Positions 359 to 9,436 of a DNA stretch of 64,000 bases are shown here, in pieces. Origin of the DNA: Burkholderiales bacterium (lineage in GTDB: Bacteria; Pseudomonadota; Gammaproteobacteria; Burkholderiales; Burkholderiaceae_E); assembly GCA_026399835.1 (NCBI GenBank), contig JAPLQE010000010.1, positions 1 to 64,000 of the forward strand. Reading direction: 5' to 3'. The position numbers and the translations under genes were made by a program. The notes below the pieces were generated by a model. That model was not told the origin of the DNA, searched no databases, and saw only the letters and a program-made list of their open reading frames with translations. The stretch's first letter is position 1, and every line of letters begins with the position of its first letter.

Positions 359-3300
359 CTCATCCGAGGCCGTTGGCCTCGGCCTCATTGAAGCAAGCGC
401 GAGTTGCGCGGCGACCTGCAGCGCCTCGAGCTCATCCGAGGCCGTTGGCCTCGGCCTCATTGAAGCTTGACCACCAGGCTCACGAAGCGCCGCGCGTAAT
501 CGTCTCATCCGAGGCCGTTGGCCTCGGCCTCATTGAAGCTCTCCTGGGCCGCCGCGCGCCATGGGCACCAAGCCGTCACCTCATCCGAGGCCGTTGGCCT
601 CGGCCTCATTGAAGCTCGGCGAATGAATAGTGCTTGGTGCCCGCCACGATGAGCTCATCCGAGGCCGTTGGCCTCGGCCTCATTGAAGCGGGCTGGAAGC
701 TGTCGATAGCCTGTGCCCGCCGCTCTACTCATCCGAGGCCGTTGGCCTCGGCCTCATTGAAGCCGATGCGCCGACGGGTCAACAACGATGGGCGTCGCAT
801 CCTCATCCGAGGCCGTTGGCCTCGGCCTCATTGAAGCCGCTCGTCGTCGCTGACACGCGAGCCGCCAACCTTGTCTCATCCGAGGCCGTTGGCCTCGGCC
901 TCATTGAAGCGGTCATCCGAGGTGACTTCCGATGCGCCGACGGGGCTCTCATCCGAGGCCGTTGGCCTCGGCCTCATTGAAGCCTGTGGCGCAGGCGGTG
1001 ATTGAGGCGTGCGCAAACTCATCCGAGGCCGTTGGCCTCGGCCTCATTGAAGCGTCTCCACCGGCCTGCCCGGCATCGCGAACGAAGTCCTCATCCGAGG
1101 CCGTTGGCCTCGGCCTCATTGAAGCCAGGGCGATGCGACCGGCTCGAACCCGTCGGGCACCTCATCCGAGGCCGTTGGCCTCGGCCTCATTGAAGCACGA
1201 CCATCCACTTCGGCTTCGTCTCCACCGGCCTGCCTCATCCGAGGCCGTTGGCCTCGGCCTCATTGAAGCTTGCTGAACTGAGGTCTGCCCATGCCTGCAG
1301 TGTCACCTCATCCGAGGCCGTTGGCCTCGGCCTCATTGAAGCCGGACGTGACTCGCACGAGCCGACGGCCGCCGCCGACTCATCCGAGGCCGTTGGCCTC
1401 GGCCTCATTGAAGCGGGTTCAGAATCCACGGGTCATCGAACTGGAACGATTCTCATCCGAGGCCGTTGGCCTCGGCCTCATTGAAGCGCGAGGCGGGCTT
1501 CGACATCCCCGACTCGATCGCCGACTCATCCGAGGCCGTTGGCCTCGGCCTCATTGAAGCAATCCCAACTCGACCCACTGCCTCGCGCGGTGCTGCTCTC
1601 ATCCGAGGCCGTTGGCCTCGGCCTCATTGAAGCGTGACCTTGATCGTGAAGCCGTTGTACGTCTCCATCGCCTCATCCGAGGCCGTTGGCCTCGGCCTCA
1701 TTGAAGCTGCACCGTCGCGTTTCCGGTCAGCGCAAGCTGAAGCCCCTCATCCGAGGCCGTTGGCCTCGGCCTCATTGAAGCCCCATTGGCACAGCCGTGA
1801 TGATCGGGCCGTACGGCTCCTCATCCGAGGCCGTTGGCCTCGGCCTCATTGAAGCGCGCGGCGGTGCCCTGCTGCGTGCCGCGCCCGATCATGCTCATCC
1901 GAGGCCGTTGGCCTCGGCCTCATTGAAGCGCCTTCGCGGCCATCCGGTCGTTCGAGCGCTTTGCCTCATCCGAGGCCGTTGGCCTCGGCCTCATTGAAGC
2001 GCGATGGTCGCGCCGACGCTGGTGCAGACCGGCTACGCTCATCCGAGGCCGTTGGCCTCGGCCTCATTGAAGCAGCGGCCCGGCCGTCGTCGTGGCGCTT
2101 CCGACCTGCTCTCATCCGAGGCCGTTGGCCTCGGCCTCATTGAAGCAATGCCCGTCGTTACGACGCCGCCGCCCGTCCCTAGCTCATCCGAGGCCGTTGG
2201 CCTCGGCCTCATTGAAGCGCCGTCTCCCGCGCCCGGGTCATCGCCGAGATGTACCCTCATCCGAGGCCGTTGGCCTCGGCCTCATTGAAGCCGATGCGCT
2301 GGTTCCGCAACGTCAACCGGCTGCAGAGCTCATCCGAGGCCGTTGGCCTCGGCCTCATTGAAGCCCTTGGGACTCCGCGAAGGCGTGGAAAACGCCGCAG
2401 GACTCATCCGAGGCCGTTGGCCTCGGCCTCATTGAAGCGACGTTCCGGTCTTCGGCGAGCTGGGGTTCACCGAGCCTCATCCGAGGCCGTTGGCCTCGGC
2501 CTCATTGAAGCCGATGCGCTGGTTCCGCAACGTCAACCGGCTGCAGAGCTCATCCGAGGCCGTTGGCCTCGGCCTCATTGAAGCTGGGCGTCCCCCGATT
2601 GCAGGCATTTCAGCAAGGCCCTCATCCGAGGCCGTTGGCCTCGGCCTCATTGAAGCGCGCGCAGGCGAAGCGCCACGTACCGGCGCGTGCTCTGCTCATC
2701 CGAGGCCGTTGGCCTCGGCCTCATTGAAGCATCCCGACGAGCGTTCAGCCCGGGCCGCAGGCCATGCTCATCCGAGGCCGTTGGCCTCGGCCTCATTGAA
2801 GCACCGGCGCGAGTCTCGACTCGACCAAGTGGAACGACGCGATCTGCTCATCCGAGGCCGTTGGCCTCGGCCTCATTGAAGCGTCATATCGGCGGTCATG
2901 CGCGCGATCTGGTCGGTCACTCATCCGAGGCCGTTGGCCTCGGCCTCATTGAAGCATGGACGCCACGGGGTACGCGCCTGGCGTGACCGACCCTCATCCG
3001 AGGCCGTTGGCCTCGGCCTCATTGAAGCGAGCCGATGCACGCAGTACCCGGCGCAGAAGGGTGGACGCCTCATCCGAGGCCGTTGGCCTCGGCCTCATTG
3101 AAGCATCACCGGCCCCGCGACAACCGGCACAACCCGATCCTCATCCGAGGCCGTTGGCCTCGGCCTCATTGAAGCATCCGCTGCATTACTGACTCCCGCT
3201 CCTGCAGCGACTCATCCGAGGCCGTTGGCCTCGGCCTCATTGAAGCGGTTGAGACCATGACGATCGTCCGCGATGGGGTGCGGCTCATCCGAGGCCGTTG

Positions 3301-3836
3301 GCCTCGGCCTCATTGAAGCGGGCGCGAGACCAACAAGTCGTCGAGGTTGACCTGGCCTCTCATCCGAGGCCGTTGGCCTCGGCCTCATTGAAGCTACACG
3401 ACCATCTCCGGCCGGGCGTTCGCGAACATCCTCATCCGAGGCCGTTGGCCTCGGCCTCATTGAAGCGTCGGCAGCGTGCCCGGCGACCCTGCGACCGCGC
3501 CCCTCATCCGAGGCCGTTGGCCTCGGCCTCATTGAAGCGCGCGCGACCGGGTCGTCCTTCGTGCCCTCGTAGGCCGGCTCATCCGAGGCCGTTGGCCTCG
3601 GCCTCATTGAAGCCAGGCCTCGGGCACGTCGCCGATCACCTGGGCGCTCCTCATCCGAGGCCGTTGGCCTCGGCCTCACTGAAGCGTCACTTTCCCGCCG
3701 TCGTCTCCGCTGACGTATGCACCGCTCATCCGAGGCCGTTGGCCTCGGCCTCATTGAAGCCGGGCAAGCATCGCGCGGATTGCAAGAGTCAGGTCAGACT
3801 TTCATCCGAAGCCGTTAGCCTCGGTCTCATTGCCAC
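359..3836 (+). CRISPR. CRISPR array, 48 repeats of 36 bp and 47 spacers
   Basis: Repeats start at 359, 431, 504, 580, 654 and so on to 3725, with a degenerate last copy at 3801-3836 (seven mismatches) and one substitution in the copy at 3650. Each 36-bp repeat begins CTCAT, contains a perfect 8-bp hairpin CCGAGGCC-GTT-GGCCTCGG, then CCTC, and ends ATTGAAGC. That end resembles the ATTGAAAC-type 8-nt handle of type I crRNAs. Spacers are mostly 34-40 nt, with one of 44 (2803-2846). The spacers at 2292-2328 and 2512-2548 are identical. Transcription is inferred to run left to right: degenerate repeat on the right, handle at the 3' end, and a TTC motif 5' of two overlapped protospacers. Type I is likely from handle and PAM; the subtype (36-bp repeats fit I-G/I-U better than the 32-bp I-C repeat) cannot be fixed without cas genes. 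All open frames across the array are artefacts of the repeats. Confidence 0.98.
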
Positions 3837-3920: not shown

Positions 3921-5474
3921 TCAAGCCAGCCTGAACGTCGACACCGCCTGCACCAGCTGCCCGGCCTGCTGCTTGAGGCCCTCGGCCGCCGCCGCGCTTT
4001 CCTCGACCAGCGCCGCGTTCTGCTGCGTGACGCGGTCCATCTGCGAGACCGCCTCGCCGACCAGCGACACGCCGCGGCTCTGCTCCTCGCTCGCCGAGCT
4101 GATCTCGCCGACGATGTCGGTCACCTTGCGGATCGACGCGACGATCTCCTGCATGGTCGCGCCGGTGCGATCGACCAGGGCGGTGCCGCTGTTCACGCGG
4201 CCGACCGACTCCTCGATCAGCCCCTTGATCTGGCGCGCGGCGTCGGCGCTGCGCTGCGCGAGCGTGCGCACCTCGCTCGCCACCACCGCGAAGCCGCGGC
4301 CCTGCTCGCCGGCGCGTGCGGCCTCGACCGCCGCGTTCAGCGCCAGGATGTTCGTCTGGAACGCGATCCCGTCGATCACGCCGATGATGTCGGCGATCTT
4401 GCGCGAGCTCTCGTTGATGCCGCGCATCGTCTCGACCACCTCGCGCACCATCTCGCCGCCGTGCTCGGCGACCTGCGACGAGCCGATCGCCAGCTGGTTC
4501 GCCTGGCGCGCGTTGTCGGCGTTCTGGCGCACCGTCGTGCCCAGCTCCTCCATCGAGGCCGCGGTCTCCTGCAGCGAGCTCGCCTGCTGCTCGGTGCGCG
4601 CCGACAGGTCGGAATTGCCGCTGGCGATCTCGCCGCTCGCGCCGGCCACCGCATCGGCATTCGAGCGGACCTCCTGCACGGTGCGGGCGAGGTTGTCGCG
4701 CATGGTGCCCAGCGCCGCCATCACGCTGTCGGTGTCGCCCGCGCGCAGCTCGATGCGGGTCGCGAGGTCGCCCGCGGCCACCGCGCTCGCCACCTCCTTG
4801 AGACGCTCGGGCTCGCCGCCGAGCCGGCGCATCACGCGGGTCACGTACCAGGCGAAGCCGCCGATCCCGAGGCCGACGAACAGCACCGCGCCGATGACCA
4901 GCTTGCGCACGAGGATCGCCTCGTCGCCGACGGCGGCGAGGTCCGACTGCAGCACCGTGCCCTGGCGGTTCTTCTCGGCGTTGAGCGGCGCGAGCAGCAG
5001 GTTGCGCGCCGGCACCGTCTTGTCGGCCAGGAATGCGAACGCCTCTGCCTTCTTGCCTTCGCGGATCAGGATGACGTTCTCCCCGGCGACCTTCAGGAAG
5101 CTCGAGAGCAGCGCCGGCAACGGTGCGTGCGCATCGCGCCCGGCCTGCGTGACCATCGCCTTGCCGAAGTCTTCGAGCTTCTCCTCGAGCAGTCGGCCCT
5201 TGTCGGCGACATCGGCGAGCGCCACGCCCATCTCCTCCGGGGTGCGCGCGAGGATCGCGTGACGCAGCTGCAGCGAGGCTCGCGTCACGTTGAGCTCGAG
5301 CTCGGCGATGCGCTGCAGCTGCGGCACGCGCGCGGCGCCGACGAGCTCGGCATGGGCGGTCAGCTGACCGATCAGCACCCAGGTCATCGCGGCCACGCCC
5401 ACCATCGCGGCGATGAGCATCGTGCTGATGGCGAACAGGCGCTGCGCGAGCGTGAATCGATTCGAAGACGGCAT
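3921..5474 (-). CDS. Methyl-accepting chemotaxis protein
   Basis: A 517-residue transmembrane chemoreceptor that would pass ligand signals to CheA/CheW. It has TM1 at about 8-36, a periplasmic four-helix-bundle region at about 40-188, TM2 at 190-211, a HAMP domain at about 212-265 and a cytoplasmic coiled-coil signalling domain. The invariant hairpin tip is present at about 370-405 ([20 protein letters not shown]). It lacks a C-terminal NWETF-type CheR tether. The ATG at 5474 was chosen because the hydrophobic TM1 follows at once; the upstream open frame is Arg/Gly/Trp-rich and has no coding look. No chemotaxis genes are adjacent. It ends 84 bases from the CRISPR trailer. Confidence 0.95.
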
Positions 5475-5865
5475 GGTGGAGGGTCCGGGTAGCTCGGAGA
5501 ATGGGCCGGGTCGCGCAGGGCTGCGCCCGGTCGTTGTTCTTGACCAGAACAAAATAGGGTCTTCCCCATGGCCCCGAACCCACGAAAAGCCTGGCCAAAC
5601 CCGGCCGTTTACGGCGCCGGTGGCCGATCGTCCGCCCGTCCGCCCGTCCGCCTGCGCCGTCCGCCTAAGGCAGGTTCTCGCGCGTGACGATCGAGAATCG
5701 CACCGGCTCCACACCCGCCATCGGGTCGCCCCCGTCGCGTGCATTGGACAGGATGCGCACGCAGGCCTGCACCATCGCCTGCGACCCGGTACGTCCCTTC
5801 CCGGACCTGACGACGCTCTGAGGCTATCCTCACGGTCCCCGACGACGCGCCAGCGCCTCCCGCCG
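5475..5865. other. Intergenic region between chemoreceptor and RuBisCO-like gene
   Basis: The 391 bases between the divergent chemoreceptor and RuBisCO-like genes hold no intact gene. The middle (5665-5823) retains a C-terminal coding remnant listed separately. Promoters for both neighbours must lie here, but no clear -35/-10 pair or operator was recognised. Confidence 0.6.
5665..5823 (-). pseudogene. C-terminal remnant of a sugar-binding-type regulator or binding protein
   Basis: Read leftward, an open stretch of about 50 codons ends with TAG at 5665-5667 and gives text such as [20 protein letters not shown] and [13 protein letters not shown]. This resembles the C-terminal tail of periplasmic-binding-protein-fold proteins, either LacI-type regulators or ABC binding proteins. 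Two in-frame stops lie directly upstream, so only the tail survives. It may be the remnant of the regulator or transporter of the neighbouring catabolic cluster. The family call is from memory of the tail only. Confidence 0.4.
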
Positions 5866-7134
5866 ATGACCGACCGCATCCTCGCCACCTACCTGATCGA
5901 GACGCCGCTCGATCCCGCCCGCGTCGCCGACGTGCTCGCCGGCGAGCAGAGCAGCGGCACCTTCGTGCGGGTGGCCGGCGAGACCGACGACCTGCGCGCC
6001 CGCAGCCGGGCCACCGTCGAGCACATCGAGCCGCTGGCCGATGCGCCGGCGCCGAGCCTGCCGAACGCCTGGCTCGAGCGCCGCGGCGTGGGCGGCCCCT
6101 GGCACCGCGCTCGCATCACCGTCGCGTTCCCGCCGGCCAACCTCGGGCGCAACCTGCCGACGCTCGCGGCCACGGTCGCGGGCAACCTGTTCGACCTCGG
6201 CGAGACCACCGGCGTGCGGCTCGAGCAGCTCGTGCTGCCGGCCGCGTTCCGCGCCCGCTTCGAGCGGCCGGCGCAGGGCGTGGCCGGTACCCGCGCGGCC
6301 ACGGGCGTGGCGCGCGGGCCGCTGGCCGGGACGATCATCAAGCCGAACGTCGGGCTGTCGGCGACCGAGACCGCGGACCTGGTCGAGGCGCTGTGCCGCG
6401 CGGGCATCGACTTCATCAAGGACGACGAGGTCAACGCCGACGCCGAGCACGCGCCGCTCGCCGAGCGCGTGCCGGCGGTGATGGAACGCGTGCGACGCTG
6501 GCAGCACGAGTCGGGCAAGCACGTGATGGTCGCGTTCAACATCAGCGACGAGCACGAAGCGATGCTGCGCCACGCCGAGCTCGTCGAGCGCGAGGGCGGC
6601 AGCTGCGTGATGGCGAGCCTGAACTGGTGCGGCTTCTCGGCAATCCAGTCGCTGCGCCGGCACACGCGGCTGGCGATCCACGGCCACCGCAACGGCTTCG
6701 GCATGTTCGAACGGCATCCGGCGCTCGGCATGGGCTTCCAGCCCTACCAGGCGATGTGGCGGCTGGCTGGCGTCGACCACCTGCACGTGCACGGGCTGGG
6801 CGGGAAGTTCGCGCAGGCCGATGCCGACGTCGCGCAGGGCGCGCGCGACTGCCTCGCCCCGCTCGCCGATCCGGCCGACACCGCCGACCGCGTGATGCCC
6901 GCGTTCTCCTCGGGCCAGTGGGCCGGCACCCTGCCCGCGACCCTCGAGGTGGTGCCCGACGGCGACCTGCTGTTCATGTGCGGCGGCGGCATCCTCGCGC
7001 ATCCGGGCGGCCCGGCGGCAGGCGTGACGAGCGTGCGCCAGGCCTGGGCCGCGGTGCAGGCCGGCCGCACGCTGGCCGATGCGGCGCACGACGCGCCCGA
7101 GCTGCGCGAGGCGATCGCGTTCTTCGGAGCATGA
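5866..7134 (+). CDS. RuBisCO-like protein, OiaX/OiaT-like
   Basis: A 422-residue protein of the RuBisCO large-subunit superfamily. It keeps the catalytic [11 protein letters not shown] segment (Lys159) and the metal/carbamate loop FIKDDE (Lys185, Asp186-187), with GHRNGFG and a glycine-rich phosphate loop [14 protein letters not shown] near the end. It has no small subunit nearby and diverges from photosynthetic forms. The next gene is a DUF1537 kinase 7 bases downstream. In D-apionate catabolism such a pair (OiaK with OiaX or OiaT) phosphorylates 3-oxo-isoapionate and then decarboxylates it to an erythrulose phosphate or splits it to glycolate and 3-phosphoglycerate. That role is inferred from family and neighbour; apionate-oxidising genes are not seen here, so another acid sugar is possible. 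The first ATG after the stop-rich upstream was chosen. Confidence 0.88.
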
Positions 7135-7141
7135 GCGGCCC

Positions 7142-8491
7142 ATGAGCGGCCCGTATATCGCCTGGGTCGGCGACGACTTCACCGGCGCCTCCGACACCCT
7201 CGCCACGCTGGCCACGGGCGGCGCGCGCGCGCTGCTGTTCCTCGACGTGCCCACCCCCGCGCGCCTCGCCGCGGTCGGGCCGCTCGAGGCGGTGGGCGTG
7301 GCCACCGCGGTGCGCTCGATGGCGCCGGCCGCGATGCGCGAGGTGCTCGCGCCGATCGCCGACTGGCTCGCCGGCAGCGGCGTGCCGGTCGTGCACTACA
7401 AGGTCTGCTCGACCTGGGACAGCGCGCCCGGTACCGGGAACATCGGCGAGGCGGTCCGCACGCTGTGGCGGCCCGCGTATGCGCCCTGGGTGCCGCTGGT
7501 GGGCGGGCAGCCCAGCCTCGGGCGCTGGTGCGCACACGGCCAGCTGTTCGCGCAGGCGGGGGCGGGCGGGCCGGTGTACCGGATCGACCGGCATCCGACG
7601 ATGAGCCGCCATCCGGTCACGCCGATGGGCGAAGCCCGGCTCGCGGTGCACCTCGCCGCGCAGGGCTGCGCGCCGGTGGCGCGGGTGGACCTCGCGGCGT
7701 TCGCGGGCGGCGCGCCGGCGATCGATGCGGCGATCGTCGCGGGAATGGGCACGGGCGCGCCCGAGCATGCGACCGGCGCGCCGCACACCGTGCTCTTCGA
7801 CACGCTGAGCGCCGCCGACCTCGCCGCGACCGGCGCCGCGATCGCGCGCCATGCGCACGGCCGCACGGTGCTCGCGGTCGGCGCGAGCAGCGTCGCGCAG
7901 GCGATGCTCGCCCGCTGGCGCGCGAGCGGCGTGCTGGCCGCGGCGGTCGAGCCCTCGGTGGCGCGGGCCGCGGTCGCGCCCGCGCGCGGGCCGGTCTTCG
8001 TGCTGGCGGGCAGCCTGTCGCCGCTGTCGGCACGGCAGGTCGCGCAGGCACGCGCCTACGAGCGCGTGGCCCTCGACGCCGGGCGGCTCGCCGCGGGCGA
8101 CGCCGGCTATCTCGAGGCCACCGCCCGTGCGATCGGCGCGCGCCTGGCGCAAGGCGCGCACGTGCTCGCCGGCACCTCGATCGCCGGTCCCGCGCCGCGC
8201 GGCGCCGACCCGGCGCTCGCGCCCGCCTGCGGCGCGCTGCTGGCGGCCGTGCTCGGGCAGGCGCGCTGCGCACGCGTGGGCGTCGTCGGCGGCGACACCT
8301 CGAGCCGCGCGGTGCAGGCGCTCGCGCCCTGGGCGCTCGGCTGGGTCGGCCGCGTCGGCGCGAGCTCGCCGGTGGTCCGCGCCCATGCCGACGATCCGGC
8401 GGTCGACGGGCTCGAGCTGATGCTCAAGGGCGGCCAGATGGGCGAGGACGACGTGCTCGACCGGCTGGTGAGCGGCGACGCGCACCGCTGA
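7142..8491 (+). CDS. DUF1537 four-carbon acid-sugar kinase family protein, OiaK-like
   Basis: A 449-residue protein with the family's N-terminal signature GDDFTGASD at residues 10-18 and a glycine-rich C-terminal nucleotide-binding part ([23 protein letters not shown]). DUF1537 enzymes are ATP-dependent kinases of tetronates, erythronates and 3-oxo-isoapionate. The gene starts 7 bases after the RuBisCO-like gene, so the two are surely co-transcribed and likely act in sequence, the kinase providing the phosphorylated substrate. The ATG at 7142 is chosen over 7131, which runs into a stop after four codons; the two lie in an 11-bp tandem duplication. Confidence 0.88.
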
Positions 8492-8617
8492 GCCCAGCGC
8501 CACCGGGCGCGCCGGGACCGGCATCGCGGCCGCTGGAACGGCGGCCGCGGGCCGCGCTCGACGCGCGCAGACCACTCGGGCATCCTCGGCGGCTCCCGAC
8601 CGCACTGCCACGCACCG

Positions 8618-9436
8618 ATGACCCTGCCCAGCCCCGAGACCCTGCTCGCCGCCGCCGACGCCGGCCACTCGCTGCCCGCCGCGGTACCGGGCGGCGCCGA
8701 CCCCGCCGACATCGACGCCGCGCTGCGCACGCAGGCCGCGGTCGCCGCACTGCGCCGCGCACGCGGCGAGTTGCAGGTCGGCTGGAAGATCGGCTTCACC
8801 AACCGGACGATCTGGCCCCTGTACGGCGTGCAGCAGCCGATCTGGGGCCCGGTGTGGGACACGACGCTGACGCTGCTCGAGGGCACCGACGCGCAGGCCG
8901 CGATCGCGCGGCTCGCCGAGCCGCGGCTCGAGCCCGAGATCGTGCTCGGCCTGAAGGCCTCGCCGCCGCCCGACGCCGATGCGCACGACGCGGCCTCGAG
9001 CGCGGCGCTGCTGGCCTGCGTCGACTGGGTCGCGCCCGGCTTCGAGATCGTCCACAGCGTGTGGCCGGGCTGGAAGTTCGGCGCCGCGCAGGGCATCGCC
9101 GCGCAGGCGCTGCACGGCGCGCTGCTCGTCGGCCCGCGCGTGCCGCTCGCCGCACTCGGCACCGATCCGGCCGGGGCGCTGTCGGCGCTGCGGCTCGAGC
9201 TGTGGCGCGACGGCGAGCGCATCGCCCAGGGCGTCGGCTCGAACGTGCTCGACGGCCCGCTGCAGGCGCTCGGCCATCTGGTCGCAGGCCTCGCCGCGCG
9301 CGGCGAGCGCGTGGCGGCGGGCAGCGTGGTGACCACCGGCACCCTGACCGACGCGCAGCCGCTCGCCGCGGGCCAGACCTGGCGCACGACGCTCGCGGGC
9401 GTGCCGCTGCCCGGCCTGACCCTCGGGGTCGCCTGA
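8618..9436 (+). CDS. 2-keto-4-pentenoate hydratase / fumarylacetoacetate hydrolase-fold enzyme
   Basis: A 272-residue protein with the hydratase-type features GWKIGFTNR near residue 60, RLEPEIVLG near 105, a VxPGFEIVHS segment near 140 and the closing VVTTGTLTDAQPL loop. Family members hydrate 2-hydroxyalka-2,4-dienoates or cleave/decarboxylate related oxo-acids with Mg2+. The substrate here is not known. It lies 126 bases after the kinase and 2 bases before a dehydratase-like gene, so it may belong to the same catabolic unit. A distant paralogue of the same fold is at 35341. Confidence 0.8.
   Translation: MTLPSPETLLAAADAGHSLPAAVPGGADPADIDAALRTQAAVAALRRARGELQVGWKIGFTNRTIWPLYGVQQPIWGPVWDTTLTLLEGTDAQAAIARLAEPRLEPEIVLGLKASPPPDADAHDAASSAALLACVDWVAPGFEIVHSVWPGWKFGAAQGIAAQALHGALLVGPRVPLAALGTDPAGALSALRLELWRDGERIAQGVGSNVLDGPLQALGHLVAGLAARGERVAAGSVVTTGTLTDAQPLAAGQTWRTTLAGVPLPGLTLGVA

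Follow-up and report, generated by a model that had tools for sequence, protein, structure and literature searches.

Can a CRISPR array disclose its own PAM when the targets of its spacers are unknown? The window analysed here, the whole stretch of 64,000 nucleotides, carries near its left end an array in which two pairs of spacers overlap. According to the original prediction, the bases TTC stand 5' of the common part in each pair, so that the array by itself gives away the PAM. Our parse of the array confirmed both pairs and both TTC triplets, and the numbering and coordinates of the four spacers concerned (6, 8, 10, and 12) proved exact. The earlier observation is sound and its reading mostly right. 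The array is very probably nothing out of the ordinary, a type I-G array with a TTN-type PAM; what is unusual is the way in which the PAM was read, and that way is reproducible.

Array Layout and Orientation

The array occupies positions 359-3836 of the + strand and consists of 48 repeats of 36 nt, with the sequence CTCATCCGAGGCCGTTGGCCTCGGCCTCATTGAAGC, between which lie 47 spacers, 34-44 nt long. The repeat belongs to the family RF01330 (CRISPR-DR16), the model of which matches 46 of the 48 copies. Forty-six repeats are exact, one has a single mismatch at 3650, and the terminal one (3801-3836, +) is degenerate with seven mismatches. As the right-hand repeat is decayed, the right is taken as the old (trailer) end and the left as the leader side, which makes the low-numbered spacers the newer ones. 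The presumed leader (95-358, +; its left border is arbitrary) lies at the end opposite to the decayed repeat. The window opens at the first base of contig C26, so the array starts at contig base 359; the source assembly has 4.95 Mb in 93 contigs and is 98% complete.

It had been claimed that the overlaps fix the crRNA strand as +. The strand is supported, but the overlaps by themselves leave it unfixed, because a GAA 3' of the protospacer on the opposite strand would look identical. What places the crRNA on the + strand is the ATTGAAGC handle at the 3' end of the repeat, the hairpin geometry described below, and the decayed right-hand repeat.

Two smaller features of the array deserve mention. 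Spacer 27 (2292-2328, +) is identical to spacer 30 (2512-2548), and spacers 28 and 29, placed between them, are unique, so this was not one simple block duplication. Spacer 8 contains, near its 5' end, 10 nt that equal the start of the repeat (TCATCCGAGG).

Overlapping Spacers and the PAM

In one pair, the newer spacer 10 (1054-1089, +) begins with 16 nt, GTCTCCACCGGCCTGC, that also close the older spacer 12 (1197-1233, +), positions 1-16 of the former being positions 22-37 of the latter. Directly 5' of this common stretch, inside spacer 12, stands TTC (1215-1217, +), which we read as the PAM of the spacer 10 protospacer. The other pair is built alike: positions 1-15 of the newer spacer 6 (764-801, +), CGATGCGCCGACGGG, recur as positions 20-34 of the older spacer 8 (911-947, +), and the TTC directly 5' of them (927-929, +) is read as the PAM of the spacer 6 protospacer. 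Spacers 6 and 8 had been described as diverging in the last three bases of spacer 8. They do diverge there, but only two of the three bases differ (GCT versus TCA, which gives two mismatches when 18 nt are compared).

Leaving aside the identical spacers 27 and 30, the longest exact stretch common to any other two spacers, on either strand, is at most 11 nt. Among the trinucleotides of the window's spacers TTC accounts for 1.1% and TTN for 2.4%; at the former rate, TTC would be met at both overlaps with a chance of about 1.3e-4. The array itself shows a PAM of the TT type, TTC in both window pairs, and since the window offers only two readings, TTC is here indistinguishable from TTN or TTY.

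One further argument had been put forward, namely that the joined spacers 12 and 10 (a 57-mer) read as one protein frame and hence come from one gene. We have dropped it: a stop codon is lacking in every one of the six frames, so the peptide is uninformative on coding strand or gene, and this openness is not special, as base shuffles of the 57-mer mostly leave three to five frames open.

The account that we consider highly probable is that of a type I-G array that acquired its spacers next to PAMs of the TTN type, TTC wherever the window allows a reading. In two instances, a protospacer 19-21 nt downstream of an earlier-sampled site, and on the same strand, would have been acquired later, so that the older spacer still holds the newer one's PAM together with its first 15-16 nt. 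Cas4/Cas1 would cut at the PAM during uptake, by analogy with the I-G systems that have been studied, and each overlapping pair would derive from one phage lineage.

Sister Arrays of the Same Repeat Family

The exact window repeat was absent from the GTDB contigs searched, and with up to three mismatches it was present in its own genome only, with none in the other 73 of the 74 genomes of the host family. Genomes with the family RF01330 number 20 among 399 from the order, 24 among 369 from the class, 7 among 349 in a draw from the phylum, and 12 among 117 from one further family; the own genome is included in the order, class, and phylum sets, and the order and other-family sets share four genomes. 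One further search for genomes with RF01330 gave no new genome. For the order, arrays were retrieved from 16 of the 19 genomes other than the own one; the corresponding figures are 20 of 23 for the class, 5 of 6 for the phylum, and 4 of 8 new ones for the other family. Stretches from 45 other genomes, one Cereibacter plasmid, and the window yielded 44 arrays with 1314 spacers, spacers that contained N or fell outside 20-60 nt being excluded. Stretches in which the later parser saw no array (L110-L114, L228, L243, and L331) were left out, as was, later, L094, which had none in an earlier parse; L107 was omitted from one step only. Some of the 44 arrays are pieces that lie, in each case, on two contigs of a single genome (L103/L104, L108/L109, and L326/L332).

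These 44 arrays contain six exact same-strand overlaps with the start of one spacer falling within another, and all six are preceded by TTY (TTC in four, TTT in two). In addition to the two window pairs they comprise spacers 3/7 (26 nt, TTC) and 59/77 (14 nt, TTC) of L095, 9/16 of L225 (22 nt, TTT), and 21/37 of L099 (12 nt, TTT). With a TTN background of 5.0%, TT at -3/-2 in six of six has a probability of about 1.6e-8. At 12 nt, the L099 overlap is no longer than chance allows when all kinds of match are considered, and the count without this pair is five of five; start-to-end overlaps of that length appear 0.025 times per shuffled set. Part of the original claim thus has to be relaxed: a TT-type PAM stands, with TTC in both window pairs, but a strict TTC does not, in view of the TTT of the sister arrays and of the TGC beside the spacer 16 target discussed below.

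A mismatch-tolerant scan with a score of at least 11 found eight same-strand pairs, seven of them with TTN; it adds L239 1/19 (TTG). The exception, L097 34/13, has three mismatches in 29 nt and reads TCA. The score cut was chosen after seeing the null (five shuffled sets), which gives 0.2 pairs per set at this cut.

Might the overlaps be accidental, or the product of array rearrangement and not of separate uptake from neighbouring sites? We regard this as extremely improbable. Spacers are duplicated in these arrays, as the identical spacers 27 and 30 of the window testify, together with a tandem duplication in the sister array L325, where the eight-spacer block 3-10 is repeated as 11-18. However, rearrangement copies whole spacer-repeat units, and a register shift of 19-21 nt is not expected of it. 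Accident, for its part, has to contend with the rarity of long matches, since shuffling letters within spacers (40 sets of the 44 arrays) gave within-array matches of at least 14 nt only 0.17 times per set, and neither process accounts for a TTY flank at every one of the six exact overlaps.

In L240, two overlapping pairs lie on opposite strands (spacers 34/45 and 42/44, with 27 and 17 nt exact, respectively), and no PAM is readable from them.

Where the Spacer Begins

C is the last base of all 48 repeats of the window and of the PAM too, so the window alone cannot assign this base to the repeat or to the PAM. Two sister arrays are helpful here. The last repeat base of L095 changes in blocks along the array (C48-G33-C1), and that of L106 does the same (G23-C31-A1), the other positions of the repeat being nearly invariant in both. 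Spacer 59 of L095 sits in the G block, and spacer 77 has TTC 5' of the part common to both. As the repeat ends in G there and TTC nevertheless precedes, the spacer begins after a complete TTC. We also considered the last repeat base as a record of the PAM and rejected this, because variation in blocks, in L095 as in L106, points to inheritance by repeat copying. The block switches in the two arrays are, as an observation in their own right, a trace of the copying of repeats from the leader side.

System Type

The original prediction had named type I-C first and mentioned I-U, with its TTN, as an option. It is the second that is the more likely. The Cereibacter plasmid array (L093) follows genes annotated as cas3u, cas8c, cas7u, cas5u6u, cas4/cas1, and cas2, type I-U. 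For three further arrays of the family (L095, L096, and L101), ten selected open frames nearby were checked for cas genes. The neighbours of L096 include Csx17/Cas8g (145 bits, cut-off 150), Csb1/Cas7g, Csb2 in two pieces, an Xpf-like nuclease, and a partial Cas4g/Cas1g (509 bits, cut-off 560); next to L095 lie Cas4g/Cas1g and an IS21 transposase, and next to L101 Csb2 and Cas4g/Cas1g. I-G cas genes thus adjoin all four RF01330 arrays for which neighbours were examined.

Type I-G has also been studied in Thioalkalivibrio sulfidiphilus. The publications consulted in part describe work on this type in Geobacter sulfurreducens and Methanosarcina barkeri. In the sections of PMC9638904 consulted, Csb2 of type I-G is reported to cut 4 nt from the base of a hairpin, leaving an 8-nt handle, and a TTN PAM is stated for I-G with reference to another paper. 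The window repeat is predicted to fold accordingly, with an 8-bp hairpin at 6-24, then CCUC, then the 8-nt handle AUUGAAGC; the predicted hairpin base, 4 nt 5' of the handle, matches the reported cut geometry. The TTN expected of type I-G agrees with TTC in both window overlaps and TTY in all six of the family. PMC10504553 describes an assay of a Cas4/1 of type I-G in which the PAM strand was 5'-GAA, corresponding to TTC on the opposite strand, and the PAMs given for I-G in the portion of PMC8482600 consulted include TTC and TTN, but also TAC, TAN, and AAN.

From the repeat family and the cas neighbours in other genomes, then, the window array is most likely of type I-G (formerly I-U), not I-C. 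It resembles type I-G systems in its 36-nt repeat, in the hairpin base 4 nt before an 8-nt handle, in its TTN PAM, and in belonging to a repeat family that, in other genomes, adjoins Csx17, Csb1, Csb2, and a Cas4/Cas1 fusion. It differs in that its repeat was absent from the other genomes of the host family and from the GTDB contigs searched, and in that its own assembly gave no match to the four cas models searched. These stood for Cas1, Csb1, Csb2, and Cas4g/Cas1g (PF01867, PF09617, TIGR02165, and NF049935); only the two that contain Cas1 matched control genomes, PF09617 and TIGR02165 matching no control genome either. With the first repeat only 359 bases into the contig, the cas operon may lie in the gap to the left of it, or the array may be an orphan.

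A type I-C array with a TTC PAM would also account for the two window readings, and TTC is indeed listed as a PAM of I-C in the same portion of PMC8482600. We nonetheless judge type I-C very improbable, as the likeness ends with the PAM: the repeat falls in RF01330, the cas neighbours of that family at L093, L095, L096, and L101 are those of I-G, and the spacing of hairpin, 4 nt, and 8-nt handle is that of the I-G Csb2.

Targets Outside the Array

The original prediction suggested searching the joined spacers against phages and looking for TTC 5' of all matched protospacers. For the joined spacers 12 and 10 this yielded no target: 50,697 phage records gave 13 weak matches, none covering 80%, and there was no match in IMG/VR (two degenerate patterns) or in GTDB contigs. 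Neither did the phage records, IMG/VR, and GTDB contigs searched contain targets of spacers 6, 8, 10, and 12. Spacers 8 and 6 taken as one pattern matched a single IMG/VR contig (L115); no spacer reaches 77% in it, so the match was treated as chance. Searches with single-spacer patterns gave one match for spacer 16, three for spacer 23, and 85 stretches for spacer 31, and none for spacer 18.

Matches were then aligned in 176 phage loci (2.26 Mb), a non-random set obtained mostly via a methylase protein or the spacer 31 pattern; reversed window spacers had no match at 77% in it. In a separate search, 81 phage records matched, of which 60 were listed and the flanks examined in six. Plasmids were searched with the native array, and of the 18 plasmid records obtained two were opened, for arrays or cas genes of their own.

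Spacer 16 (1488-1524, +) has the only perfect protospacer found, 37 of 37 nt at 5839-5875 of IMG/VR contig L418, within the gene for the portal protein. The 5' flank of this protospacer is GAGCTGC, which puts TGC, not TTN, at the PAM position. The reading frame at this target is E-L-R-E-A-G-F-D, and the Leu codon CTG takes up positions -4 to -2. CTG and CTT are synonymous, and with CTT the PAM position would read TTC. The TGC may thus stem from a silent change of the PAM, from a PAM laxer than TTN, or from a related phage in which TTC was never present.

Spacer 23 (2001-2037, +) fits a TTN-type PAM, its best phage matches (35, 34, and 34 of 37) lying behind TTT, TTC, and TTC. They fall in a C5-cytosine methylase gene family that is also the best target of spacer 31 (2585-2620, +; 32 of 36, flanks CTG, TTC, and GTC), the gene being that of phages RcapNL, BgManors32, LPPA36, and IMG/VR relatives; the flanks of the spacer 23 matches all sit in one conserved gene and so are not independent. 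For spacer 23, TTN precedes three of three phage matches at 90% or more, and 15 of 27 at 77% or more. Spacer 31 has no match at 90%; TTN stands before three of its 16 matches at 85% or better, and before at least 12 of its 90 at 77% or better. Spacers 18 (32/38, TCG) and 26 (31/37, GCC) match phages without TTN, and spacer 43 has one phage match (28/36) with the flank CAG. Taken over all arrays, ten spacers match the 176 loci at 80% or more, and the best match has TTN for three of them: window 23, L225 31, and L093 22. The two best matches of L225 spacer 31 (92%) stand behind TTT, and the next two (89%) behind TTC. Best matches without TTN are those of window spacers 16 (TGC), 31 (CTG, with TTC in a tie), 18, and 26, and of L225 13 (GCC), L105 9, and L098 21. 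Restricted to best matches of at least 90%, TTN is found for two of three spacers. For the other protospacers of the window, then, TTC was borne out in part by spacer 23, but not by spacer 16 or by most weaker matches, and protospacers that lack it weaken the case for a strict TTC.

On chromosomes of the order, the native array has matches (E ≤1), mostly weak, in 344 of 399 genomes, and 20 places were aligned. Eleven places are matched at 78-86%, by spacers 1, 4, 10, 22, 23, 26, and 35, and TTN is missing from all of these places; the best chromosomal match of spacer 10 (31/36) has the flank CGC. These, and the weak matches without TTN in general, are probably related or chance sequences and not the source of the spacers. 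The TTN reading rests on the overlaps, and chromosomal matches give it no help.

Could the PAM then be laxer than TTN, for instance TNC, with TT at -3/-2 owing in part to luck? The perfect spacer 16 protospacer with its TGC speaks for this, as do the CTG, GTC, and CTC beside spacer 31 matches and the seven of ten spacers for which the best phage match lacks TTN. Against it, luck would have to supply TT at all six exact array-internal readings, at the background probability given above. The L418 deviation, being silent within a Leu codon, fits a changed PAM just as well, and matches at 80-89% are likely to be related genes, in which the flank is not necessarily kept. We therefore think a laxer PAM quite unlikely and retain a TTN-type PAM.

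Direction of Uptake and Use of the Approach

In each of the six exact pairs it is the newer spacer that lies downstream (two-sided sign test, 0.03), and the same is true of seven of the eight pairs of the tolerant set (0.07). This polarity is a lead, not a result: exact matching could favour the direction observed, since overlaps of the reverse type would be lost if the target had escaped by a change in the old seed. In the portions of the type I-G literature consulted, we found no report of primed uptake or target re-sampling. It is possible, though unlikely, that the overlaps record a rule by which re-sampling of a site places the newer spacer on the same strand and downstream, away from the old PAM, as a trace of primed uptake in I-G, and that the spacer 16 phage escaped via a silent PAM change from TTC to TGC.

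As in the PAM inference from mapped spacers described in the consulted part of PMC8482600, the PAM is read here beside the origin of a spacer. That approach takes the flank from matches outside the array, whereas in the window it comes from within the array, out of an older spacer, so the target sequence is not needed. Overlapping spacers by themselves can therefore give the PAM of an array with unknown targets, as shown for one array, with three relatives consistent. We expect this to be useful for orphan arrays, for arrays cut by the end of a contig, and for hosts with unknown phages. It also yields dated pairs of an older and a newer spacer on one site, which could show whether type I-G re-samples its targets.

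Genes Near the Array

Positions 5413-9436 of the window, near the array, encode a RuBisCO-like protein (closest to OiaX, the 3-oxo-isoapionate-4-phosphate decarboxylase), which scores below the curated cut-off, as well as an OiaK-like kinase and a hydratase-like protein, both likewise below their curated cut-offs. These genes probably belong to an acid-sugar pathway.
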